The position numbers and the translations under genes were made by a program. A stretch of 64,000 bases of DNA from an uncultured Campylobacterota bacterium (GTDB taxonomy: Bacteria > Campylobacterota > Campylobacteria > Campylobacterales > Sulfurovaceae). Positions 1,213 through 44,917 of this stretch are shown piece after piece. The stretch spans positions 1 to 64,000 of the forward strand of contig CAKZQQ010000005.1 in NCBI GenBank assembly GCA_937141405.1, in the 5' to 3' direction. The notes under the pieces were generated by a model. It saw nothing but the letters and a program-made list of their open reading frames with translations. It was not told the origin of the DNA and ran no database searches. The number at the start of each line of letters is the position of its first letter. Within the stretch, counting starts at the first letter, position 1.

Positions 1213-1241
1213 AAGACCCTCTTGGGTCTTACTTTGTTTTT
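1213..1241 (+). terminator. Rho-independent terminator after the ComEA-like gene
   Basis: A perfect 7-bp stem, AAGACCC (1213-1219) with GGGTCTT (1224-1230) and a TCTT loop, is followed by ACTTTG and a run of seven T. It overlaps the stop codon of the convergent gene. Confidence 0.85.
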
Positions 1242-3721
1242 TTAGAATAAGGCTTGAGTGTTATAAGCATTTTTGGTAAAAGAAGTATAGCCCCACTTAA
1301 TAACGTGAACATGATAATAACCGTTAAAAATCCAAAATATATTGTAGGAATAAGGTTTGAAAACACAAGTACTGAAAAGCCTATCATGATGATGAGTGAT
1401 GTGAAAAGCATCGCATATCCAACGCTTTGATGTGTATTTACCATTGCTTGGAGGTAGTCTCCCGCTTTATCATACTCCTCTTTATATCTATGTATGTAGT
1501 GGATGGTATCATCAACGCCAATCCCGATAGAAATAGCGGCAATTGTTATGGTCATCACATCAAGCGGTATGCCTAGCCATCCCATGATTCCAAAAAGGAG
1601 TGATATAGGGACGATATTGGCTATGAGTGCTATAAAGGCAACCTTGAGAGACCTAAAGAGCAATAAAAACATAATAAAGAGTAGTATGAGAACAAATCCT
1701 AAAGTTTTAATCTGTGAGTCAAAGAGGGATTGTAGCATATTATTATAGAGCACCATAAGATTGGAGAGTCTATATTTCGTATCTTTATTTTGTATCACGC
1801 CTCTTAAATCATGCTCTATCTTTTTGATAAGTTCGTTTCTTCTGAGATTTGGATTGGAGTCTATGATTCTCGTTGAAATCCTTGCTTCATTGGATTCGAT
1901 ATTGATATAGGGTCGAAGGAGTAGGTCTTTATATCGATTAGGGAACATCTTGTAAAAGAGTGCTAAAGTGATACCGTCTAAATCTTCGCCGTGATTGAGC
2001 AATTTTCCTGTTTTAAGGAGCGAGCCAAGAGATTGTACTTTTCCAACTTCGGGGAGTGAATCGAGATAATTATGAACAGCCAAAATCGCCTCCATTTTAT
2101 CTTGAGTAAACCAGTATTGCGGGTCATCTGCACTCTTTGCAAATTCGTCTTCAAAATCATCAAAGAGATCATCATCTTGGGTTTCGGTAGTTTTAATATC
2201 TTGTTTGTTATCAAATTGTATGATTACATCAAGCGGTGTTGTGCCCCCAAGTTCTTCATCGATTACCTTCATGCCTTGGTAAATAGCAGTGGTTTTTTTA
2301 AAATAGTTAATAAAGCTATTTTCGACGATAAGTTTTGATGCCCCGGTAAGAGAGAAGATAACTACGATGATGCTTGTGATGAAAATAGCTTTTTTATCTT
2401 TAAGCACAAGGTTTGCGGTAAAATTTACAAAAGAGAATTTACTACTGCGTACAAATGAGTGCTTCTCTTCTTTTCTTGGTCGAAGCATGAGGATAGCCGG
2501 AAAAAGGAGAAAAGCAATGATAAACGATATTGCAACGCCTGTGCTCATCATAAGTCCTAAGTTTTGAACAGGTTTTATGCTTGAGAGAACCAATGAGCCA
2601 AATCCTGCTATAGTGGTGATTACGGCGAAGAATGTCGGGTTGAATTTGGAATCCATCGTTTCAACAACAAGCTCTTTTTGAGATATCTTATCGTGTGTGA
2701 TATCCTCAACCTCTCTATATCTTACTATGAGGTGGATAACGATTGAAAGTGTAATGATGAGCTGTAATGCAATAAAATTTGAGGATATAACAGTCACTTC
2801 CCAATCAAAAAAACCAAGGAGTCCTGTGGTCGCTACAACGGAAACACTACAGATAATGATAGGCACAAAAACCCACAATGCCCTCCTAAATAAAACCCAT
2901 AAAATAATCATTAGAATCGCCAGTAAAGATGTGCCGTATATAACAAGATCGCTCTTAACAAAACCGATGATATCAGCTGCAATCATATTGACCCCACCTA
3001 AAAACATAGAGCCCTCTGCGCTGTATTTTTTCATCACAGCCCTGATACTTGCTATATCTTCTGCTTCTTTGATTCTTGTTTTGTCTCGATAGGTTTTAAA
3101 CTCATTGTTTATCTGCTCAAGTTTTATCTTTTCATCTCTGTTAAGCGCAGTTTTTCTACTTTTATCTAGAAGTGCATTTCTTGCTTCGAGATAATGTGTA
3201 TATTGATTATCGTTCTTAAGGTTAAGTACAATCGCTGTAGTTGTGAAATCACTACTCACTAAGTTGTTACTATAAAATTCTGAAGTAAGAAATTCATGCT
3301 TGACTAATTTTTTATCAAATTTCTTTGTACTGAGGGTATCGACTCCGCCGGCAAGGTCACTTAGTGGAAGTGGAGGAGACTCCACAAGGGGGACATTGAG
3401 AATTGAAGTTATAGAATCAATCGTATCTATTTTAAGAAGGTCATCAGATATCTCTTTTATGATTTGTAGATTAGCATCATCGAGCAAGGCACCTTTTTTT
3501 GGAGAAAAAGTGAGAATCAAAAAGTTTGGACTATAATATTTTTTGGATACTTCTCTTGAAAATGCTAGATCGCTGTCATTTTCTAGGAGTAGCGTCTCAG
3601 AAGAGGCGTCTATCTCCAACTTTGTCGCATAATACCCTAAGATTCCTATGGACAATGAGATAAAGGCGAGTATGGCAAGCGGGTAGCGTGTTACCCACCT
3701 TGCGTAAAACTCTCTGATCAT
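1229..3721 (-). CDS. RND superfamily (MMPL/SSD-type) permease, probable lipid transporter of the MlaA-MlaC system
   Basis: An 830-aa RND-type protein. It has TM1 near residues 14-34, a periplasmic loop, a five-helix bundle around 260-410 containing the sterol-sensing-like permease fold, a second TM near 440, a second loop with an acidic insert (DDDLFDDFEDEF), and a final bundle with the MMPL-typical GIGVDDTIHYIHRY in TM10. Its start overlaps the stop of the MlaC gene by 4 bases (ATGA), so the two are translationally coupled. The same three-gene set (vacJ/mlaA, ttg2D/mlaC, RND permease) occurs in Campylobacter as I recall. Canonical Mla uses the ABC complex MlaFEDB; here an RND protein sits in its place. 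Proton-driven phospholipid movement is inference. Confidence 0.85.
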   Translation of the reverse strand: MIREFYARWVTRYPLAILAFISLSIGILGYYATKLEIDASSETLLLENDSDLAFSREVSKKYYSPNFLILTFSPKKGALLDDANLQIIKEISDDLLKIDTIDSITSILNVPLVESPPLPLSDLAGGVDTLSTKKFDKKLVKHEFLTSEFYSNNLVSSDFTTTAIVLNLKNDNQYTHYLEARNALLDKSRKTALNRDEKIKLEQINNEFKTYRDKTRIKEAEDIASIRAVMKKYSAEGSMFLGGVNMIAADIIGFVKSDLVIYGTSLLAILMIILWVLFRRALWVFVPIIICSVSVVATTGLLGFFDWEVTVISSNFIALQLIITLSIVIHLIVRYREVEDITHDKISQKELVVETMDSKFNPTFFAVITTIAGFGSLVLSSIKPVQNLGLMMSTGVAISFIIAFLLFPAILMLRPRKEEKHSFVRSSKFSFVNFTANLVLKDKKAIFITSIIVVIFSLTGASKLIVENSFINYFKKTTAIYQGMKVIDEELGGTTPLDVIIQFDNKQDIKTTETQDDDLFDDFEDEFAKSADDPQYWFTQDKMEAILAVHNYLDSLPEVGKVQSLGSLLKTGKLLNHGEDLDGITLALFYKMFPNRYKDLLLRPYINIESNEARISTRIIDSNPNLRRNELIKKIEHDLRGVIQNKDTKYRLSNLMVLYNNMLQSLFDSQIKTLGFVLILLFIMFLLLFRSLKVAFIALIANIVPISLLFGIMGWLGIPLDVMTITIAAISIGIGVDDTIHYIHRYKEEYDKAGDYLQAMVNTHQSVGYAMLFTSLIIMIGFSVLVFSNLIPTIYFGFLTVIIMFTLLSGAILLLPKMLITLKPYSKKTK

Positions 3722-16035: not shown

Positions 16036-17391
16036 TTGATTCGTTATTTTATCTTAGCATCTATCTTAATCATGCCTCTTTTTGCCGGACTAAATAATCT
16101 TAGACTCCATGATGCTATTGAGATTTTAAAAAGATCAAATTTAGAGCTAAAGAGTGCCGAATTTGATGAAAAGATGAAATATTACGAGGCGCAAGCAGTA
16201 AGCGGAATGAAGTTTGGGAAACTTGATGCTGCTGTTAGCGCAATGCGATCTGATGATGCAGGAAACGTCTTTGGTTTTAAGCTCCAAAGCCGAGAAGCAA
16301 ATTTTGGTGATTTCGGTGCTGGAGAATTTGATCCCTCAAATCCTGATGTGCTCACTATCCAACCCTATGATCTCAATTATCCGGAAGCAAGAAACCACTA
16401 TTTGACAAAAATTACATATTCTATCCCCCTCTATACAAGCGGTAAGATATATGAATACGGAAAAATCGCCAAAAAATTGGCCCTTATGAGCAAGCTCGAT
16501 ACAAAAAAAGTTTTACAAGAGAAGATTTATCAAGTCAAAAAGGCATTTTACGATATTAGCCTTATCGAAGAGTATATCAAAAACCTTTCTCTTATCACTA
16601 AAAATATAACGCAATTAGAGCAGACAGTCAAACAGATGAAAAAAGAGGGATTTGCGCTTGAGTCTGACTTGCTAGAGGTGCAAGCACAAGGTGCTGAGGC
16701 CGAGAGTATGTATATTCAAGCGAAACTCAACAGAGATCTTGCTTATCAATATCTCTCTTTTTTGCTCAATCAAGAGGTAAGCTCTATCGTTACACAAAAA
16801 AATAATCTGGCAACCACAAAAGAGATTACAAGAGATGATGTTATTGCTTCTAACCTTGATATACAAAAGGCAAAAATGGGACTTGATGTAAGCAAGAGAG
16901 CTGTGAGTGTTCAAAGGGCAAATTTTGGACCCACTATCGGTGGTTTTGCTGAGTACGGTAGCGCTGATAATGAAGCAAATTTTGACAAAGATAAAGATTT
17001 TTATACCGTAGGTGTGCAACTCTCTTGGAATATATTTAACGGTGGCAGTGACTACTCTAATCTACAAAGAGCAAAAATAGAATATCTTAAAACGCAAAAG
17101 CAGGTTGAACTAGCTAAAAGCGGTATCTATCTCAAAACAAAAAAACTTCAAACCGAAGCGCTTAGTGCTCTCGAAGAGATTAAAAGTTATCAAAAACAGT
17201 ATAAATTTGCATCAAGAGTCTATACTACCTATAATGAGCGATATAAAGAGGGAATCGTGCCTGTAGGTGATGTACTTATCAAGCAGTCAAAAAAACTAGA
17301 AGTTCTTACAAAACTTTTAAGTGTAAAAAACAAGTATAATACAAAGATATTTGAGCTAGATATGTTACTAAATAGGGGGGAAGAGATATGA
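16036..17391 (+). CDS. TolC-family outer membrane efflux channel
   Basis: A 451-aa outer membrane factor with a signal peptide (YFILASILIMPLFAG), then two repeats of the coiled-coil/beta OEP type: LRLHDAIEILKRSNLELKSA at the first helix and VGVQLSWNIFNGGSDYSNLQ in the second half, the usual SW.lFnGG strand. The start is TTG 16036 with GGAAGGAGAGG upstream. The stop overlaps the next gene by 4 bases, so channel, adaptor and pump are one operon. Export substrate unknown; the channel could in principle also serve the type I-secreted adhesin encoded later, but nothing shows this. Confidence 0.93.
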   Translation: MIRYFILASILIMPLFAGLNNLRLHDAIEILKRSNLELKSAEFDEKMKYYEAQAVSGMKFGKLDAAVSAMRSDDAGNVFGFKLQSREANFGDFGAGEFDPSNPDVLTIQPYDLNYPEARNHYLTKITYSIPLYTSGKIYEYGKIAKKLALMSKLDTKKVLQEKIYQVKKAFYDISLIEEYIKNLSLITKNITQLEQTVKQMKKEGFALESDLLEVQAQGAEAESMYIQAKLNRDLAYQYLSFLLNQEVSSIVTQKNNLATTKEITRDDVIASNLDIQKAKMGLDVSKRAVSVQRANFGPTIGGFAEYGSADNEANFDKDKDFYTVGVQLSWNIFNGGSDYSNLQRAKIEYLKTQKQVELAKSGIYLKTKKLQTEALSALEEIKSYQKQYKFASRVYTTYNERYKEGIVPVGDVLIKQSKKLEVLTKLLSVKNKYNTKIFELDMLLNRGEEI

Positions 17392-18101
17392 TAAGAGTTC
17401 TAATTTTTACATTTTTATTGCTATTTAGTTCTGCAAATGCTATTGAACTTGTGCTAAGCGGTACGGCCATATCGGACAATCAAAAAGTTTTAGCAAGCCG
17501 AAATATGGGCTATCTTAAAAAGATGAATGTAAGCGAAGGTGATGAGGTCAAAAAAGGTGATTTGCTCTATGAGATCGACCCGACAGAAGTCAATGCACAA
17601 AAGCAGATGTATAGAAATCAACTCAATAATATATTGAAAAATCTTGAGAGATATGAAAGACTGTTTAAAAAAGGGATGGTTTCAAAGTATGACCTTGAAA
17701 ACATGAGACTTGCTGCGCAAAATCAAAGAGAGATGTTGAGTATAGCTGAGGCTCAAGATGCATATCTTAAAGTAATCGCACCTAACGATGGGATAATAAT
17801 ATCAAAAAATATGAATGAAGGTGAAATGGTCAATCCTGGAATGCCTGTTGTTGTCTTGACCGATCTTACAGATATAAGGATTGTGATTGAAATTAGCGAG
17901 AATGATCTTAAAAATATCAAAAAAGGCGATAAGGTAAAGGTGGATATTCCTTCTATCGAGTTGAGTACAGAAGGCGAGATAAGCTCTATCATTCCGGCTT
18001 CTAATCCCATGACGCATAAATTTAAAGCAAAAATAAAATTTGATAAAGCCGGAAAGAGTGTCTATCCGGGAATGTTTGCTCGAGTTACCTTGGAGCTATA
18101 A
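17388..18101 (+). CDS. RND efflux periplasmic adaptor (HlyD/MFP family), short
   Basis: A 237-aa membrane fusion protein with signal peptide (LIFTFLLLFSSANA). Lipoyl-like halves flank a short helical hairpin: GYLKKMNVSEGDEVKKGDLL and IAPNDGIIISKNMNEGEMVN, with the hairpin at about residues 70-120. A beta-barrel domain follows (DLTDIRIVIEISENDLKNIK). At 237 aa it is shorter than most RND adaptors (350-400 aa) and seems to lack the membrane-proximal domain and an N-terminal anchor. It lies between the channel and pump genes. Confidence 0.9.
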   Translation: MIRVLIFTFLLLFSSANAIELVLSGTAISDNQKVLASRNMGYLKKMNVSEGDEVKKGDLLYEIDPTEVNAQKQMYRNQLNNILKNLERYERLFKKGMVSKYDLENMRLAAQNQREMLSIAEAQDAYLKVIAPNDGIIISKNMNEGEMVNPGMPVVVLTDLTDIRIVIEISENDLKNIKKGDKVKVDIPSIELSTEGEISSIIPASNPMTHKFKAKIKFDKAGKSVYPGMFARVTLEL

Positions 18102-18104
18102 TAG

Positions 18105-19703
18105 ATGGGAAAAGAGATTGAGAATAGCTCAAAATCGATGGATATAGCCGGAAAGCTTGCACAAGGTTTTCTCAAAAACCCTCTCACTTCAGTCCTTGCT
18201 GCATTTTTAATCCTCGTAGGGTATATCGCCCTTAATTTTATGCCAAGAGAAGAGGATCCCCAAATTGCTATCTCCGGCGGTGCTGTTATCGTTGCACTTC
18301 CGGGTGCTAATGCAAGTGAAGTAGAAAAGGTGATTGTCAATCCCCTGGAGAGAAAGTTAAGAGAGATTAGCGGTATAGAGCATATATATGGCATGGCGAT
18401 GAATGATGTAGGTATTGTCAATGTGATGTACTATATAGGAGAAGACAGAGAAGACTCAAATCTCAAACTCTACGATAAAGTGATGCAAAATCTTGACTTG
18501 ATGCCAAAAGGTGCGATGCAACCTCTTATCAAGCCTTTTGATATCGATATCGATATACCTATATTAACAGTCGCATTTTATGTAAAAGATAGCACAAAAA
18601 TAGATCAAATCAAGTTCTATGAAAAGATTCGTGATATTCAGCACTCTGTGAATGCTATAGAGAATGTTTCAAAAACAAATCTTAAAGGCGATAGAAGAGC
18701 ACAATATAACATCGAGGTGGATTTAGGAAAACTTGCAGGGTATAACCTCTCACTCGGTCAAATAATGATGGCGATTCAATCAGTAGCCAAAGGTGTTCCT
18801 GATGTGAGTACGACAACACCTGATGGAAAATTGGTCGTTTTTGGACTTAAAAATGCTATTGAGAGCGTTGAGGATGTAAAAGATATCGCTGTTGCTCAAT
18901 ATGGCGGTTCTCTGATCTATCTCAGGGATGTTGCGAAGATATATAAGGGCATAGATATACAAAACAAAAAGATAGCGACTATCACTTATAGGGATTCAAA
19001 AGAGGAAGCGTTGAGCAAAGATACTCAGCAAACTACTTTGAGTGTTTCTAAACTTGCAGGTACCAATGCTGTCGTTGTAGCAAAAGAGGTTTTGGACTAT
19101 CTCAAATCCCAAGAAAGTTCGCTTGATAATGCCGGAGTAGGGTATATAGTTACACGAAATTACGGTGTGAGAGCAGATAATGCCGTCAATGAGTTGATGC
19201 ACCATCTTATCATCACAATTATTATCATCGCGATTATGCTTGTGTTTGCCCTTGGTTGGAAAGAGTCGCTTATCGTCACCTTTACTGTGCCTGCCATTTT
19301 GGCTGTGACGCTCTTTATCGCATATCTCGGTGGTCAGAGTATAAATCGTATCACTCTTTTTGCTTTTCTACTCTCCTTGGGACTTTTGGTTGATGCGGCT
19401 ATTATCGTTATAGAAAATATTCATAGGCATCTTCATGATCATAATTCGCCTCACGAGAGCATGGAAGAGCTCTTAGTTGAAGCAACCAATGAGATAGGGC
19501 CGCCTACAAATATTGCTACGCTTGCTATCATCCTTACGATGGTGCCTATGGCTTTTGTCGGTGGCATGATGGGCTCATTCATGAAGCCTATACCTCTCAA
19601 TGTGCCTGTAGCGCTCGTTGCTTCACTTTTTGTGGCATATATATTTACACCCTACCTTAGTTTGAAATTGCTCAAAAAAGAGCATGGGCACAAGGGGAAA
19701 TAG
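18105..19703 (+). CDS. RND efflux pump, N-terminal half (split gene)
   Basis: A 532-aa first half of an RND (AcrB-like) permease. It has TM1 at residues ~28-48, the porter loop, then TM2-TM6 (about 365-525) containing the TM4 proton-relay helix SLGLLVDAAIIVIEN. D430 is present, but the position of the second Asp of the AcrB pair is Ala431. The reading frame ends with TAG at 19701-19703 and the second half starts with ATG at 19704 in the same frame. AAGGGG at 19692-19697 is a good ribosome binding site for the second half. The break falls in the cytoplasmic linker between the TM6 and TM7 halves, so two half-pumps can be made. Confidence 0.9.
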   Translation: MGKEIENSSKSMDIAGKLAQGFLKNPLTSVLAAFLILVGYIALNFMPREEDPQIAISGGAVIVALPGANASEVEKVIVNPLERKLREISGIEHIYGMAMNDVGIVNVMYYIGEDREDSNLKLYDKVMQNLDLMPKGAMQPLIKPFDIDIDIPILTVAFYVKDSTKIDQIKFYEKIRDIQHSVNAIENVSKTNLKGDRRAQYNIEVDLGKLAGYNLSLGQIMMAIQSVAKGVPDVSTTTPDGKLVVFGLKNAIESVEDVKDIAVAQYGGSLIYLRDVAKIYKGIDIQNKKIATITYRDSKEEALSKDTQQTTLSVSKLAGTNAVVVAKEVLDYLKSQESSLDNAGVGYIVTRNYGVRADNAVNELMHHLIITIIIIAIMLVFALGWKESLIVTFTVPAILAVTLFIAYLGGQSINRITLFAFLLSLGLLVDAAIIVIENIHRHLHDHNSPHESMEELLVEATNEIGPPTNIATLAIILTMVPMAFVGGMMGSFMKPIPLNVPVALVASLFVAYIFTPYLSLKLLKKEHGHKGK

Positions 19704-21398
19704 ATGAAAAAATTTGAAAATTTTGTTTTTTCGATCCTTGAAACGCCCCTCAAGAAAAAAAGAGTTTTACAGATAACGCTTGCTCTGTTTGTTATAGCGA
19801 TTTTGATGTTTCCGACAAAGATAGTTTTAGCCAAGATGCTTCCGGGGAAAAGTGACAATACATTTTCTGTCTATATAGATGCCCCGAGTGGCACATCGCT
19901 TGTACAGACTCAAGAGATATCGCAATGCGTGATAGGTGAGCTTAAAAAAGAGCCGGAAATCCTCAATATGGAGCTATTTCTATCTGATGGTATTCCACTT
20001 GATTATGCAGGTTTGGTCAAGGGGTCAGGCATGAAAAACAGTGAGAATCTTGCAGAGCTTTCTGTGAATCTCACCTCTAAGCACGATAGAGATGAAACCT
20101 CCTTTCAAATGGTACATCGAATTAGGCCGATTATTAAACAAAAATGTGAACCTTTGGTGGAGCGCACATCGATTAAATTTATAGAGCAACCTGCCGGTCC
20201 ACCTACGATGGCTTCTATTGTTGTAGAAGTTTATAGCAATGATGTGAAAAAAATACGAGAAGTTTCAAAAGATGTTGTTAAAATTCTCTCAAAAACAGAA
20301 GGGCTTGTCGATGTTGATATCGTCGGCGATAAGATATTTAAAAAATATCAGCTCATTCCCGACAAAGATCGTATCGCAAGAAGCGGATTGAGTGTTGATC
20401 AGGTCAACAAAATACTCTACCTTGCTTTTGAGGGCATGGTTGTGGGTTACAAAAATACTAAAGATTATAGTGATCAGATACCAATTTTCTTAGTGCTTGA
20501 TAAGCAGAGCAAAACAATAGCTGAGCAAGATGAGTTTGCTCTGCGCTCAAAACTCTCATCATTACAGCTTATGAATTCCCAGGGGATGCTTGTTTCTCTG
20601 AGCGAAGTGGTAGATATTAAAAAAGTGGATTCAAGCCCAACTATCATGCATAAAAATCTTGCGCGTATGCAAAATGTGATTGCCGAAACTGACGAAGTTT
20701 CACAAGTCTACCCGCTTTTAGATGCCAGAAGTCAGATGATTGATTATTTTAGTAAAGATTATGAGGTCACAAAAGAGTCGGGGATGTCAACATATATGTT
20801 TGATCTCCACCTCAAAGATAAAAAGACAGGCAAAGAGGTGCTTCTTAGATGGGATGGTGAAATGAAAGTGACTCTCGATACTTTTAGAGACCTTGGCGGT
20901 GCATTTATAGCTGCGCTTATATTGATATTTTTACTCCTTGTTGTCTACTATAAAAGCTTTAAGTTGAGCGGTATTGTGCTTTTGGGCTCATTTCTTTCTA
21001 TTATCGGCGTTATCTTTGGGCATTTAGTTGCCGATATCGTAACGACAGATACATTTTTCTTGACAGCCACTTCACTCATAGGCTTCATAGCCCTTATGGG
21101 GATAAGTTCAAGAAATTCGCTTCTGCTCATAGATTTTGCAAAAGGCCTTATGGTCGATAAAGGGGTAGAAAAGAGGCGTGCTATAGCGATAGCAGCAGCT
21201 ACAAGAGCAAAACCTATCGCACTCACAGCGGTGGCTATCATACTTGGTTCCGCACTACTTGCAAGCGATCCTATCTTTGGCGGTCTTGGAGTTGCACTTA
21301 TCTCAGGAACTGTTGCGGCAGTATTTGTTTCACTTCTCTTTATTCCCATCTTGATGGACGGCAGTGATGCGATGGATTTTAAGCCAAAAGAGGACTAG
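19704..21398 (+). CDS. RND efflux pump, C-terminal half (split gene)
   Basis: A 564-aa second half of the RND permease. It has TM7 at about residues 21-44, a second porter loop with MLPGKSDNTFSVYIDAPSGT, and TM8-TM12 (about 395-555) including FIALMGISSRNSLLLIDFA and the end block GVALISGTVAAVFVSLLFIP. It follows the first half with no gap and in frame, separated only by an amber codon. Combined length 1096 aa is normal or slightly long for a complete RND pump and no conserved segment is obviously missing, which argues for a working split rather than decay. A hairpin follows the gene. Confidence 0.9.
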   Translation: MKKFENFVFSILETPLKKKRVLQITLALFVIAILMFPTKIVLAKMLPGKSDNTFSVYIDAPSGTSLVQTQEISQCVIGELKKEPEILNMELFLSDGIPLDYAGLVKGSGMKNSENLAELSVNLTSKHDRDETSFQMVHRIRPIIKQKCEPLVERTSIKFIEQPAGPPTMASIVVEVYSNDVKKIREVSKDVVKILSKTEGLVDVDIVGDKIFKKYQLIPDKDRIARSGLSVDQVNKILYLAFEGMVVGYKNTKDYSDQIPIFLVLDKQSKTIAEQDEFALRSKLSSLQLMNSQGMLVSLSEVVDIKKVDSSPTIMHKNLARMQNVIAETDEVSQVYPLLDARSQMIDYFSKDYEVTKESGMSTYMFDLHLKDKKTGKEVLLRWDGEMKVTLDTFRDLGGAFIAALILIFLLLVVYYKSFKLSGIVLLGSFLSIIGVIFGHLVADIVTTDTFFLTATSLIGFIALMGISSRNSLLLIDFAKGLMVDKGVEKRRAIAIAAATRAKPIALTAVAIILGSALLASDPIFGGLGVALISGTVAAVFVSLLFIPILMDGSDAMDFKPKED

Positions 21399-21410
21399 CT
21401 CCTCTTGTCT
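21388..21410 (+). terminator. Possible terminator of the efflux operon
   Basis: AAGAGGA (21388-21394) pairs with TCCTCTT (21400-21406) around CTAGC, followed by GTCTTTT. The stop codon lies in the loop. The T run is short. Confidence 0.5.
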
Positions 21411-27586: not shown

Positions 27587-30500
27587 TTATAGAACTATAT
27601 GACCGACATCTGCTTGAACCCAGATTTGAGTCGAAGTGCCAGATGTGTCGGTATAGACATTATAAGTGATGCCATCTTGGTTAGTTTGTCCGTTAGCAGC
27701 CCAGCCATCTAGGTTGACGGTATCATCGCTATCGCCGAGTATTTTAAGCGTAGTTGCGCTATTACCTGTGATATCAAGTACATCACTACCACTTAAATTC
27801 TCAAGCACTACACTTGCGTCTGTAAGATCAAGCGTTTCTATATTGGTAATTGGGTTTGTTGAGCTATTTAATGTACCAAAATCAAGGGTTGTATCGGTAT
27901 TAAAAATCAGTACATCCGAGCCATTACCTCCATCAACAACAACATCTGACGCATCATAAACTAAGATATCATTGCCATCTCCACCATAGAGTGAATCTGC
28001 AACACCTTCCATTCCTATTAAAATATCATTGCCGTCTCCGCCATAAAGCTCCGCTCCATCACTGTTATTGCTAATGATAATATTACTATCACTATCGCCG
28101 GTTAGCACAGTGTCGGTAACACTGCCCGTAATGGATGTTGTATCAGGATCAGTTACATTGATTGTAAGTGTTGTTGTGCTCGTCATGCCATCTTCATCAG
28201 TGATAGTATAGGTAAATGTATCTGTAGCATAAAATGCTGTTGCCGAAAGATCATTAAATGCTGAGGATACGCCATAAACATAATCATCTACATCAACCCC
28301 TGTGTCAGCTGCAGTGCCGGCATCAAGATCTATTGCATAGATGTTTCCATAATATTGAAATGCGTAGATAGAACCATCACTATCAATCCCTATACCATAC
28401 ATATTATTAGGCATTCCGGTTACCACAGTAGTAACGGTGCCTGTATCTAAATCATATTTTAAGAGATTGCCATCTGATAAAGCATAAATATCTCCATCAT
28501 AATAGAGTATATCGTCACAATAATAACCACCAAGACCATCTACGTAAGTCGCTGCCCCCGTCGTTGCATCGATAGTGTATAGGTCTCCATAATAAGTAAG
28601 GGCATATAGGGTCCCATCTGAGTCAGAGACTAAACCTCTTATCTCTCCTGATACGTTTGCCGTACCAATATAAGTAGAAGAGGCTGTTGAAGTATTGATA
28701 TTGTAAAATTCACCATTTCCCATAATGCCGTACAATGTACCGTTTGGAGTTATAGCAATATCATAGAATGTATGCCCGGAATATCCAATTACAGTAGTTG
28801 CGCCTGTTTCCGGATCTACCGTACCTATATTACCTCCATTATCTACATAATAGAATACACGATCACTCGCTTCTTCATATGCATTCTTGGCTCCTGCTGT
28901 AAGACTTTTATCTAAAGTATAGGTATAGCTACCATCTGCTTGCATCACTAAAGTACCATAAGTGCCTTGAATTTCTGCACCCACACTGCCGGAGGCGCTC
29001 ATCGTGCTACCTGCAAGCACTCCCGTAACTGAAAAAGAGTCACCATCCGCATCATGATCTTGCCCGGTAGTTTCAGGGGTAACATCCCCTGTAGCGGTGA
29101 CGGTTGTAGCAGTCATTGTTGTTGAAGCGGCACCATAAATCGTTCCGCTCAAATCTATGTTGTTTGCAGAAGTATAGGTATTATTAGTAGGATCAACGAT
29201 ATAAGCCGTTCCATCATTTTTAATCACATATATATTGCCATCGTCATTAAGCGCAAGACCATACAATGTTCCGCCCATTCCTGTTACTATGGTGTTAACA
29301 CTGCCGGTTGTGAGGTCATATCTCAATAGGTTATTGTCAGCTAATATATATAAACCATCATCATAATAGACAAGGTCATCACAATCGTATCCAAAGTCCT
29401 GTGGTGTAACAAGAGTTGCTGCCAAAGTAGCTGTATCGATAGAATATAAAGAGCCTCCATTAGTCATCGCATACAGGGTGCCATCCTCACTAAATGAAAG
29501 ACCGTATATGTTGCCATTATTTGTACCTGTTACAGTGCCAAGTGAAGTAGTTGCCCCCGTAGCAGTATTAATGCTATATAGTCTTTCACTTGATGTGATA
29601 GCATATAATTCTCCGCTTGAAGTCGTAGCGATGTCATAAATTTGGCCATGAGTATAGCCAAGTGAACCGATAACCGTCTGAACTCCTGTTGTAAGATCAA
29701 CGGTGCCAATTTCTTCATGATTAGTTATATAGTAAGCGGTAGTAGTAGAGTCCGGCATGTTAATAACGGCTTGATCAGCTACAGCAACCGGTGCAGTATT
29801 GATCGTAACGGTAATTGTCTCAGATGCAGAGGCTGTATCTCCATTTGCACCCTCTGTTGCTGTTGCCGTTACTGTAAGTTCATTTATAGATCCACTGCTT
29901 GAAACATCGGATGCCGTATAAGTTAAACTATCCAAATCCCAATTTGTTACATCTACCGTTGTTGATCCCGACGTTGCAGTAAATGTGTTGGTACCATCAG
30001 ATATCGTACAACCTTCCGGTATATCGGAAATCGTAATACTAAGAGTTTCTGAGCCGTCAGTATCGGTAAGAGCAGCAGAAATACTTGTGAGTTTGATAGG
30101 TGAACCTTCCATTCCTTCATTTAAGGCAATAGGATAATAACCATTTTCACCATCAGTTGATACAAGTGATGAATGTTGTCCATCTATGTCAGCTGCATTT
30201 GAATAGAGATTAAAATTGGTTGTATCAAGTGCAACCGGTGTTGCTCCGTCAACTGAGACATTGATTGAAAAATAGCCTACATCATTTCCATTATAAGTAT
30301 GTATATTAAGCGTGTAATACCCGGATTCACTTACGGTATATGTTCCTGCGGTTGTGGCTGTTCCTGTACCCGTTCCTGTTGTTCCGGCAATTGAAGTGTC
30401 ATATGTTCCATATGCATCTCCTGTAGTGCTAATTAGTGTGGTGCCACCAAGTTCTATTTGTAGGGAGTCATCAAAATAGCCGGAAAAAGAGATCGTTGTT

Positions 30501-33064
30501 CCTGCCTCAAGATAGATAAGTCCTGTTGTTACCTCAACAGTCCCCGTTGTTATGTAGTCTGCTTCAGCACCGCTATTACCCGTTGCATAAGGTTGAGTCA
30601 CAATCGTCTCAGAATCGGGGGTGAGACCCTCAACTGCTGATTCAAGGTTTCCACTATCGACGGCTCCCCAACTCACATTATTGTATATCTGTTGTATTAA
30701 GCCCGTACCGCTTGGTATTGTCACGAGATCGATAAGATCATCACCGCCTGATGATTGTGTACCATCGATCGTAAGAGTCGGAGTATCGGCAACAGCTGTG
30801 ATATTTATAGCTGTCGTGTAACTTGTAGCGCTCCAATCAGTGCCATCATACACGCTAAATGTAAAGTTGCTATCCGCATCACTATTGTCAGTTGGATCAA
30901 ATGTCAAAAGTCCGGAGTCAATATCAGCAACCTCAATAACAGTTCCTGCCGCAACAGCGTCTCCATCAAGATATAAGATACCATTAGTTGGCAATGAATC
31001 GATTCTGATGAAGGCTAAACTATTTCCCTCTACATCACTATAAGTTCCAAAATCATTTGTAGTTAAAGTATATACATCTGCTGTATTGTTCATATCCTCT
31101 AAGATGGTTATAGAGTCATTAGTCGAAGTAGGGATAAAATTATTTGTTATTACATTATAGGTACCATCTGCAAATACTATAGTTTCGATGTTTCTCAGCT
31201 CAGTCACATCTCCTATGCCATCACCATTGCTATCGCTTGTGGCTTTTTCTGTAACAATGATATTGCCATTTACATCAGTGGTAATAGTATAATCAGAAAT
31301 ATTGCCGCCAAAATTAACAGTATCTGTTCCGTTGCCGCCATCTAACATAAGATAATCATTGGCATCATCTTCGTTGCCCGATGTTATTACTGCTTGATCA
31401 GTCTTGATTGTATCATCACCGTCACCTGTCAACACATAATCGTCTGTAGATTCAGTAGACGCGTTACTTGCGTCACCATGATAATAGTGAGTTGAGTCGG
31501 TTTGTCCTGTTGTATTCCCTGCGGTATCTGTTTCAGTGACGCTAAAGAACTCATTATCATCGATTGGTGTATTACTCAAATTAGAGATATCTACACTCCA
31601 TGTTCCATCTGATTGTACAGTTGCTGTTGCTACCAAATTATCATCTTCATCATATATGGCAATAGTGTTGCCGACCTCTGCGCCTGTTCCATACATTGTG
31701 ACAGAAGAGTAATCTCCGAAATGATCTACTATATTTGTTATTTTTAATTGATCTATATCGGGGGCTGTAGCATCGACAGTTACACTGCCGCTACCTGTGC
31801 CTTCGTTCCCTGCAGTATCTGTTGCAGTGACATCTACAGTTGTTGTTCCGTCGGCAAGTGTATCAACAACATCATCTGCAAGTGTCCATGTGCCGTCACC
31901 GTTATTCGTAGCCGTGTAATCCACACCGTCTACTGTTACAGTAACCGTTGCAGTAGGATCATCTATAGTTCCTGTAAGTTCAGGGGTATCATCATTAGTT
32001 AAAGCGATATCATCAACATCAACAATAGGAGCTGTCGTATCGAGTGTGAATGTAATCGATGCTGTAGCACTCGGGTTGCCTGCAGGATCTATCTCTCTTA
32101 CAGTGACGGTATTAGAACCCTCAGTTGCGCTAGGCGGTGTTGTACTCCATGTACTGCCACCGTCTGTACTATACTCTATAGTATTGCCTGCTTCGTTTGG
32201 TGTAACAGTAAGTGTGCCGTCACTTGTAATAAGGTCTGTTGTACTTGAACCTGTATCATTCGCAAGCTCTACGCTTGGTGCAGCAGGGGCTGTAGCATCG
32301 ACAGTTACACTGCCGCTACCTGTGCCTTCGTTCCCTGCAGTATCTGTTGCAGTGACATCTACAGTTGTTGTTCCGTCGGCAAGTGTATCAACAACATCAT
32401 CTGCAAGTGTCCATGTGCCGTCACCGTTATTCGTAGCCGTGTAATCCACACCGTCTACTGTTACAGTAACCGTTGCAGTAGGATCATCTATAGTTCCTGT
32501 AAGTTCAGGGGTATCATCATTAGTTAAAGCGATATCATCAACATCAACAATAGGAGCTGTCGTATCAATAGTAGCAGCTTGGCCGCCACCGCCACCGCCA
32601 CCGCCACCTGCACCGGCAAGGGCTCCCGCTCCAAGTACGCCAAGCAGAATTGGAAGAAAGCCACTGTCTGATTCTGTATTAAGAACTTGATAAGACGATA
32701 GACCATCACTTAGATTTTCTGCGAGCATTGTTGAATCAAGCTCTTGAGGGCTATAGACATAAAGATTTCCATCTTCGGCTACACCAAATATTTGTCCCTC
32801 GTCATTTTCGTAATAATCTTTAACGATGACAGTAGAGTCATCATCTTCGCTCTCAGTCTCATTGAGAATCTTAATTTCAAGATCATCACCTTTTCTAGTT
32901 ACCTTTATCATATCAGGCGCTAAATTTTTAGTTAAATCTTTAACTTCATAGCTTGAATTAGGCTGTGCTTGAACAATAAGTGGCGAACCCCCACCATCGG
33001 GGATATTTATCTCAGATCTTGTCCCATCACTGTTGTTGATAATATTTAATATATTTTTACTCAT
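27587..33064 (-). CDS. Giant type I-secreted adhesin (BapA-prefix, Ig-like, VCBS/propeller, RTX)
   Basis: A 1825-aa surface protein. Residues 1-135 resemble the BapA prefix-like domain, followed by a Gly-rich linker (145-161). Bacterial Ig-like units follow; the one at ~167-260 is repeated exactly at ~342-435. A first RTX-like segment (~535-640, VLTGDGDDTIK), a cadherin-like unit (~645-765), a PA14-like jelly roll (~780-960) and another Ig/cadherin unit come next. Then a VCBS-type domain has two five-unit propeller-like inserts (~1106-1311 and ~1400-1601). The C-terminus has RTX nonapeptides (LYGGDGNDILIG, ~1668-1720) and a type I secretion end. No N-terminal Sec signal or LapG-type di-alanine site is seen, and no type I secretion genes are in the window. 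Role in attachment is inferred from domain type. Confidence 0.9.
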   Translation of the reverse strand: MSKNILNIINNSDGTRSEINIPDGGGSPLIVQAQPNSSYEVKDLTKNLAPDMIKVTRKGDDLEIKILNETESEDDDSTVIVKDYYENDEGQIFGVAEDGNLYVYSPQELDSTMLAENLSDGLSSYQVLNTESDSGFLPILLGVLGAGALAGAGGGGGGGGGQAATIDTTAPIVDVDDIALTNDDTPELTGTIDDPTATVTVTVDGVDYTATNNGDGTWTLADDVVDTLADGTTTVDVTATDTAGNEGTGSGSVTVDATAPAAPSVELANDTGSSTTDLITSDGTLTVTPNEAGNTIEYSTDGGSTWSTTPPSATEGSNTVTVREIDPAGNPSATASITFTLDTTAPIVDVDDIALTNDDTPELTGTIDDPTATVTVTVDGVDYTATNNGDGTWTLADDVVDTLADGTTTVDVTATDTAGNEGTGSGSVTVDATAPDIDQLKITNIVDHFGDYSSVTMYGTGAEVGNTIAIYDEDDNLVATATVQSDGTWSVDISNLSNTPIDDNEFFSVTETDTAGNTTGQTDSTHYYHGDASNASTESTDDYVLTGDGDDTIKTDQAVITSGNEDDANDYLMLDGGNGTDTVNFGGNISDYTITTDVNGNIIVTEKATSDSNGDGIGDVTELRNIETIVFADGTYNVITNNFIPTSTNDSITILEDMNNTADVYTLTTNDFGTYSDVEGNSLAFIRIDSLPTNGILYLDGDAVAAGTVIEVADIDSGLLTFDPTDNSDADSNFTFSVYDGTDWSATSYTTAINITAVADTPTLTIDGTQSSGGDDLIDLVTIPSGTGLIQQIYNNVSWGAVDSGNLESAVEGLTPDSETIVTQPYATGNSGAEADYITTGTVEVTTGLIYLEAGTTISFSGYFDDSLQIELGGTTLISTTGDAYGTYDTSIAGTTGTGTGTATTAGTYTVSESGYYTLNIHTYNGNDVGYFSINVSVDGATPVALDTTNFNLYSNAADIDGQHSSLVSTDGENGYYPIALNEGMEGSPIKLTSISAALTDTDGSETLSITISDIPEGCTISDGTNTFTATSGSTTVDVTNWDLDSLTYTASDVSSSGSINELTVTATATEGANGDTASASETITVTINTAPVAVADQAVINMPDSTTTAYYITNHEEIGTVDLTTGVQTVIGSLGYTHGQIYDIATTSSGELYAITSSERLYSINTATGATTSLGTVTGTNNGNIYGLSFSEDGTLYAMTNGGSLYSIDTATLAATLVTPQDFGYDCDDLVYYDDGLYILADNNLLRYDLTTGSVNTIVTGMGGTLYGLALNDDGNIYVIKNDGTAYIVDPTNNTYTSANNIDLSGTIYGAASTTMTATTVTATGDVTPETTGQDHDADGDSFSVTGVLAGSTMSASGSVGAEIQGTYGTLVMQADGSYTYTLDKSLTAGAKNAYEEASDRVFYYVDNGGNIGTVDPETGATTVIGYSGHTFYDIAITPNGTLYGIMGNGEFYNINTSTASSTYIGTANVSGEIRGLVSDSDGTLYALTYYGDLYTIDATTGAATYVDGLGGYYCDDILYYDGDIYALSDGNLLKYDLDTGTVTTVVTGMPNNMYGIGIDSDGSIYAFQYYGNIYAIDLDAGTAADTGVDVDDYVYGVSSAFNDLSATAFYATDTFTYTITDEDGMTSTTTLTINVTDPDTTSITGSVTDTVLTGDSDSNIIISNNSDGAELYGGDGNDILIGMEGVADSLYGGDGNDILVYDASDVVVDGGNGSDVLIFNTDTTLDFGTLNSSTNPITNIETLDLTDASVVLENLSGSDVLDITGNSATTLKILGDSDDTVNLDGWAANGQTNQDGITYNVYTDTSGTSTQIWVQADVGHIVL
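31761..32041 (-). repeat. 281-bp direct repeat, copy 2 (adhesin Ig-like unit)
   Basis: By base-by-base reading, identical to 32286-32566. It encodes the Ig-like unit around TAPIVDVDDIALTNDDTPEL to GTGSGSVTVDATAP. The start-to-start distance is 525 bases, a multiple of three. Confidence 0.9.
32286..32566 (-). repeat. 281-bp direct repeat, copy 1 (adhesin Ig-like unit)
   Basis: Identical to 31761-32041. The 244 bases between the copies encode a different Ig-like unit (TAPAAPSVELANDTG..). Recombination between the copies would delete or add 175 codons in frame. Confidence 0.9.
32585..32608 (-). repeat. Hexanucleotide microsatellite in the adhesin Gly-rich linker
   Basis: Four tandem GCCACC units (plus-strand reading) encode part of the nine-glycine run. 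Unit gain or loss would stay in frame and change linker length by two residues. Confidence 0.8.
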
Positions 33065-44481: not shown

Positions 44482-44833
44482 CTAGGTGTGATAGGTAGTT
44501 GCTATCAATTATTTGGTAGAGGAAAGTCCGAGCTACATGTGAGACAAGACTCCACCTAACGGGTGGCCGGAGTAATCCGAGGGCAAGTGCAACAGAGAGA
44601 AGTCAGCCTGAGCCAATTGGATCAGGTCAAGGTGAAAGGGTGGGGTAAGAGCCCATCAGTGCTTATGGTAACATGAGTAGCTAGGTAAACCCTGTCTGTA
44701 GCAAGAAGTATATGGTAATAAGTCTCACACTCGTCACTTTTAGTGGCAAAAGTACTTCGCTTGAGTCTTATGGTGACATAAGGCCTAGATAAATAACTAC
44801 CCACGACAGAACTCGGCTTATCGTCACACCTTA
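44482..44833 (+). ncRNA. rnpB: RNase P RNA, bacterial class A
   Basis: The ends pair to form P1: AGGTGTGA (44484-44491) with TCACACCT (44824-44831). The universal 5' core GAGGAAAGTCCGAGCTAC starts near 44519, and the 3' core ACAGAACTCGGCTTAT is at about 44807-44822. Other family features are ACGGGTGGCCGGAGTAATCC (P7-P8 region) and the AGAG/GGTAA joining segments. Length of about 350 bases is normal. It matures the 5' ends of tRNAs. Confidence 0.95.
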
Positions 44834-44917
44834 TAATCCCCCCAATTAATTTATAATTGATCTATGATTTGCTATATTTTAGATAGAATATCCATATATG
44901 AAAGCTTAGGATATGAG

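Follow-up and report, generated by a model that had tools for sequence, protein, structure and literature searches.

The window, a 64,000-nucleotide stretch of a contig from an uncultured Campylobacterota bacterium, encodes an RND efflux permease as two adjacent half-length genes, and our sequence comparisons strongly support a conserved gene fission as its origin. We consider it very probable that this is an anciently split permease, in which the fission took place once and two half-subunits, produced by coupled translation, pair to form an AcrB-like protomer of a trimeric pump. Translational coupling, physical pairing, the trimer, transport and its substrate are what we infer.

Results

The forward-strand frame at 18105-21398 is open except for a single TAG at 19701-19703, which is immediately followed by an ATG at 19704. 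The N-terminal half (N-half, 18105-19703, 532 amino acids) terminates with this TAG and matches positions 4-496 of the 1021-position ACR_tran profile (PF00873, 239.6 bits), and the C-terminal half (C-half, 19704-21398, 564 amino acids) matches positions 520-1016 (148.8 bits; the cut-off is 28). RND permeases usually, though not by strict definition, are single polypeptides of ∼1000 residues, in contrast to the two shorter open reading frames found here. A Shine-Dalgarno-like AAGGGG (19692-19697, + strand) is located six bases 5' of the C-half ATG. The lone stop, the abutting start and the ribosome binding site had all been pointed out in an initial sequence-only reading of the window, and they are borne out. 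A terminator-like hairpin overlaps the end of the C-half (21388-21406, + strand; consensus scan only), and the same scan reported no terminator-like site on the + strand at the junction of the two halves.

The operon starts with a TolC-family outer membrane channel (16036-17391, + strand; Pfam OEP, 5.2e-45), followed by a periplasmic adaptor, or membrane fusion protein (17388-18101, + strand; TIGR01730 RND_mfp, 143 bits with a cut-off of 94.9). With 237 amino acids this adaptor is short for an RND membrane fusion protein. Among split loci with enough flanking sequence, 59 of 66 have the TolC gene upstream where it is expected, and 94 of 103 have the adaptor gene upstream. An elongation factor P gene, named from the Sulfurovum mangrovi record and a sequence match, lies 3' of the permease pair. 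Long ACR_tran matches identify four permeases in the source genome (1.75 Mb, 98% complete), of which the one at 18105-21398 alone is interrupted. Elsewhere in the window, the - strand encodes an 830-residue MMPL-family exporter, also of the RND superfamily (1229-3721), and a 1825-residue protein with bacterial Ig-like, cadherin-like and tachylectin-like matches (27587-33064); a bacterial class A RNase P RNA is present at 44483-44836, and the first features in the window are a 23S rRNA, of which only the end is included, and a 5S rRNA.

We modeled the two halves as one joined chain with the TAG read as Q (pLDDT 83.9, pTM 0.78). The joined model reveals an RND protomer fold, which superimposes on AdeB over 982 residues (Z 44.4, r.m.s.d. 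4.0, ∼20% identity), with Z-scores of ∼44 over 971-983 residues for AdeB, MdtF and AcrB. In this model the protomer fold is complete in the two halves together; because the chain was joined, it is silent on pairing and cannot prove that separate halves associate. The stop maps to residues 523-533, a loop that connects TM6 (helix 495-522) to an amphipathic helix (534-546) preceding TM7, in agreement with the earlier suggestion that the break resides in the cytoplasmic linker. A section of a Chem Rev review likewise describes an amphipathic helix between TM6 and TM7. In alignment A2, residues 75 and 148 of the C-half are invariant cysteines (19/19 C-halves), which could possibly form a periplasmic disulfide.

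We also compared the split permease with narrower RND families. Against the curated NCBIfam models of HAE subfamilies, the best scores are 213.8 (N) and 118.4 bits (C), compared with a cut-off of 1250 for NF033617, which is harsh on halves because the model is full-length. The positions of the AcrB-like HAE-1 relay residues D407, D408 and K940 are occupied by Asp, mostly Ala, and Arg, respectively. Those of D405, E939 and K984 in the CusA/CzcA (HME-RND) group are Asp, Arg and Ile, and the copper-site positions M573, M623 and M672 of CusA correspond to Tyr, a gap and Gln. The NCBIfam SecF score is 27.8 bits (cut-off 160), and the N-half matches PF02355 weakly (21.3, cut-off 20.5), with no single stretch passing.

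Next of kin share the interruption. In 59 related genomes, 51 rows with 52-100% identity to the N-half have N-half frames of 522-604 amino acids, and six rows with 44-51% identity have frames of 1077-1171 amino acids; the partial rows of G012 (present as two pieces) and G036 (located at the end of a contig) are kept out of this tally. Among the matches listed, no uninterrupted relative is found at 52% identity or above, so that the test set in the initial reading, uninterrupted close relatives in which lesions accumulate, does not refute its interpretation. Other RND permeases of the same 59 genomes (22-28% identity) have a frame of at least 990 amino acids in 86 of the 90 matches listed, a contrast that goes beyond chance. 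In an order-wide sample, the N-half and the C-half each find a match in 207 of 298 genomes (E ≤ 1e-100), counts that include genomes whose sole match is a full-length relative; the matches listed are all of half length (N 523-586, C 511-676 amino acids). With a full-length query against 397 genomes of the class, 27 genomes exceeded the threshold, and the frame is uninterrupted in 11 of these. The best 80 loci in a scan of named genomes belong to Sulfurovum and other Campylobacterota, and for the cultured carriers Sulfurovum mangrovi and Sulfuricurvum kujiense NCBI lists both halves as separate permease coding sequences. The half-gene locus tags of two loci (L185 and L186) are out of series with those of their neighbors, perhaps reflecting an earlier annotation as one broken gene. 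L185 is on a replicon recorded as an S. mangrovi plasmid (NZ_CP087125.1); the neighbors of the pump there include serA, efp and the gene for ribosomal protein S1, and this replicon may be a chromid or a chromosome piece.

We next compared the junctions at 149 loci. Setting aside 31 repeats, six full-length loci and one with no start in range left 111 distinct split loci; L049 (no start within limits) and L066 (which ends at a contig edge) are outside this set. The break position is identical and the halves are adjacent in all 111. The second start is offset from the first stop by -1 in 52 loci, -4 in 37, 0 in 11 and by other values in 11, and N- and C-half are in different frames in 99, mostly as TAATG or ATGA overlaps. 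The N-half ends with TAA (52), TGA (48) or TAG (11), and the C-half starts with ATG (99), GTG (10) or TTG (2). A Shine-Dalgarno 4-mer precedes 107 of the 111 second starts, compared with 513 of 5197 internal ATGs used as a control. The nearest relative, with halves 88% and 94% identical, has a TGA stop and a +1 offset. One family-level group (f8) has another junction type, with nine bases from stop to start in most members seen, and in genome G056 the internal TAG is located 5' of the true ATG. The shared frame of the two halves, correctly noted for the window, is not a conserved feature: it occurs in only 12 of 111 loci, and we consider it incidental because 99 of the junctions are out of frame.

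In a 73-row tree, all 53 split rows group together in a single clade with an SH-aLRT of 100; outside it are 15 full-length rows from the order and five from other phyla. The tree counts L173 and L178 as split, both having an in-frame stop. The split state requires one change on this tree, which derives from a quick search without bootstrap and has long outgroup branches. A single clade implies that one old fission is enough to account for the split rows. The linker between fixed alignment columns has a median length of 69 residues in split and full-length rows alike, and little sequence would thus have been lost or gained at the fission. Both halves have dN/dS values of 0.02-0.11 in the closest 25 of 90 pairs with >85% identity, pointing to strong purifying selection on each. 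Pairwise distances of N- and C-halves correlate over 104 loci (r = 0.945; the best of 1000 shuffles is 0.25), a value that shared descent alone would yield for linked genes.

We analyzed the proton relay residues in 104 split rows, seven of the 111 being too short. TM4 of the window permease reads LLVDAAII, and Asp430-Ala431 (19392-19397, + strand) take the places of AcrB Asp407-Asp408. The first position is Asp in 104/104 split rows; the second is Ala in 96 and Asp in eight (L050, L051, L052, L054-L057 and L065). In TM10, Arg470 of the C-half (21111-21113, + strand) replaces AcrB Lys940 and is Arg in 104/104 split and 6/6 full-length rows. The Arg971 and Thr978 places are retained in all 76 split rows that reach them. 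Most Asp-Asp rows form a second split paralogue clade, sometimes with the Asp-Ala type in the same genome (G031, G013, G040). Full-length relatives have Asp or Ser at the 408 position within the order, Gly in Polaromonas and Ala in Roseibium.

The Asp-Ala pair had been correctly observed in the initial reading, and we considered a link between it and the fission. We rejected this link: the 408 column takes six changes on the tree, Ala, Ser, Gly and Asp occur there across split and unsplit proteins, and Gly and Ala are found in two unsplit relatives of another phylum. Judged from the alignments, Asp-Ala is a trait apart from the fission, which occurs also in unsplit relatives and in CusA. A comparison of Asp-Ala with Asp-Asp split rows revealed no new charged site that could compensate for the lost Asp.

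Discussion

Work on RND pumps has dealt with single chains, whose two repeats of six helices each shift relative to one another. We found no description of a split, half-size or two-gene RND efflux permease in the open-licence literature searched, and portions of PMC8300790, which deals with three RND pumps of Aliarcobacter, mention no split.

The window sequence taken by itself would also be compatible with amber read-through, yielding a half-length and a full-length permease, as the initial reading had proposed alongside fission: its halves share one frame and only a TAG separates them. Read-through is formally possible in the 12 of 111 loci with a shared frame, and further same-frame junctions occur among loci picked by the full-length query, a selection that is biased toward shared frames. 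We regard read-through as very unlikely and unsupported, because the frames differ in 99 of 111 loci and the stops vary, with TAG the rarest of three; the second start has a Shine-Dalgarno site, and even the nearest relative has a TGA stop and an offset frame. A decaying pseudogene or a one-base sequencing error, either of which would leave a long conserved frame with just one stop in it, is extremely unlikely given that the break is conserved in assemblies of many genera and that dN/dS is low in both halves. The initial reading had already set aside random decay. A break so common across a bacterial order argues for an old, maintained design rather than a broken gene.

The halves could also be independent proteins, which form separate homo-oligomers or perform different jobs, as they are separate genes and each has its own start signal. 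We find this improbable, since they are adjacent in every split locus and are counted in equal numbers of genomes (207 and 207 of 298). Furthermore, the TM4 acid is contributed by the N-half and the TM10/TM11 relay residues by the C-half, and an AcrB-type relay would consequently need both. Gene fission, the other proposal of the initial reading, accounts for the same break at 111 loci, the single clade and the selection on both halves.

In the fission that we favor, the ancestor would have been a full-length permease whose cytoplasmic linker acquired, on a single occasion, a stop codon together with a second start and a ribosome-binding site to serve it. Channel, adaptor and both permease halves are most likely encoded on one mRNA, and ribosomes finishing the N-half would restart at the abutting or overlapping C-half start. 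N- and C-halves would then pair in the membrane into one AcrB-like protomer, and three such pairs presumably assemble with the adaptor and TolC into a pump that is a trimer of heterodimers.

The split permease resembles the HAE pumps AcrB and AdeB in its fold over ∼980 residues (joined model), in the kinds of operon partners and at the Asp407, Arg971 and Thr978 places. It differs from them in having two chains instead of one, in the exchange of Asp408 to Ala and of Lys940 to Arg, and in overall sequence (∼20% identity). Uninterrupted kin exist as single genes in the same order and in Polaromonas, Roseibium, Pseudanabaena, Flammeovirga and Alloyangia (43-49% identity to the N-half inside the order, ∼32-39% outside), and share the TM10 Arg-Asn in the rows aligned. 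SecD/SecF, a protein-export factor, is an RND-superfamily machine of two half-size subunits; in contrast, the window pair fits ACR_tran far better (239.6 versus 21.3 bits) and has TolC and adaptor genes as neighbors. In MdtB/MdtC, an RND pump has two different permease subunits that originate from a permease gene duplication, as outlined in passages of PMC10872679 and PMC8277102, whereas here we propose a fission. E. coli CusA also has a TM4 Asp-Ala, but its relay includes E939 and K984 (according to a section of PMC8092243), the places of which are Arg and Ile in the split permease, and the copper-site methionines are not retained. A natural fission in a cytosolic loop of a polytopic membrane protein, with fragments that assemble, is described in part of PMC3464245 for split-Doa10 of Kluyveromyces, which is a eukaryotic ER ubiquitin ligase encoded by a nuclear gene.

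Replacing relay residues abolishes extrusion by AcrB, as a passage of PMC8277102 states. We tentatively raise the possibility, which we hold to be rather unlikely as a whole, that trimers of N/C heterodimers throughout the clade operate a minimal relay, in which a single TM4 carboxylate at the Asp407 place faces the arginines at the Lys940 and Arg971 places. If true, this would be a natural one-acid pump suited to testing one versus two protons per cycle; a conserved family with one TM4 acid, not two, is a direct test. Where Asp-Ala and Asp-Asp split paralogues share a genome, the halves might swap partners.

For annotators, our findings mean that these genes should not be labeled as frameshifted or broken. 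A natural pump with unlinked repeats would allow each half to be separately tagged, mutated and dosed, and the split pump suggests that the covalent linker between the repeats is dispensable.
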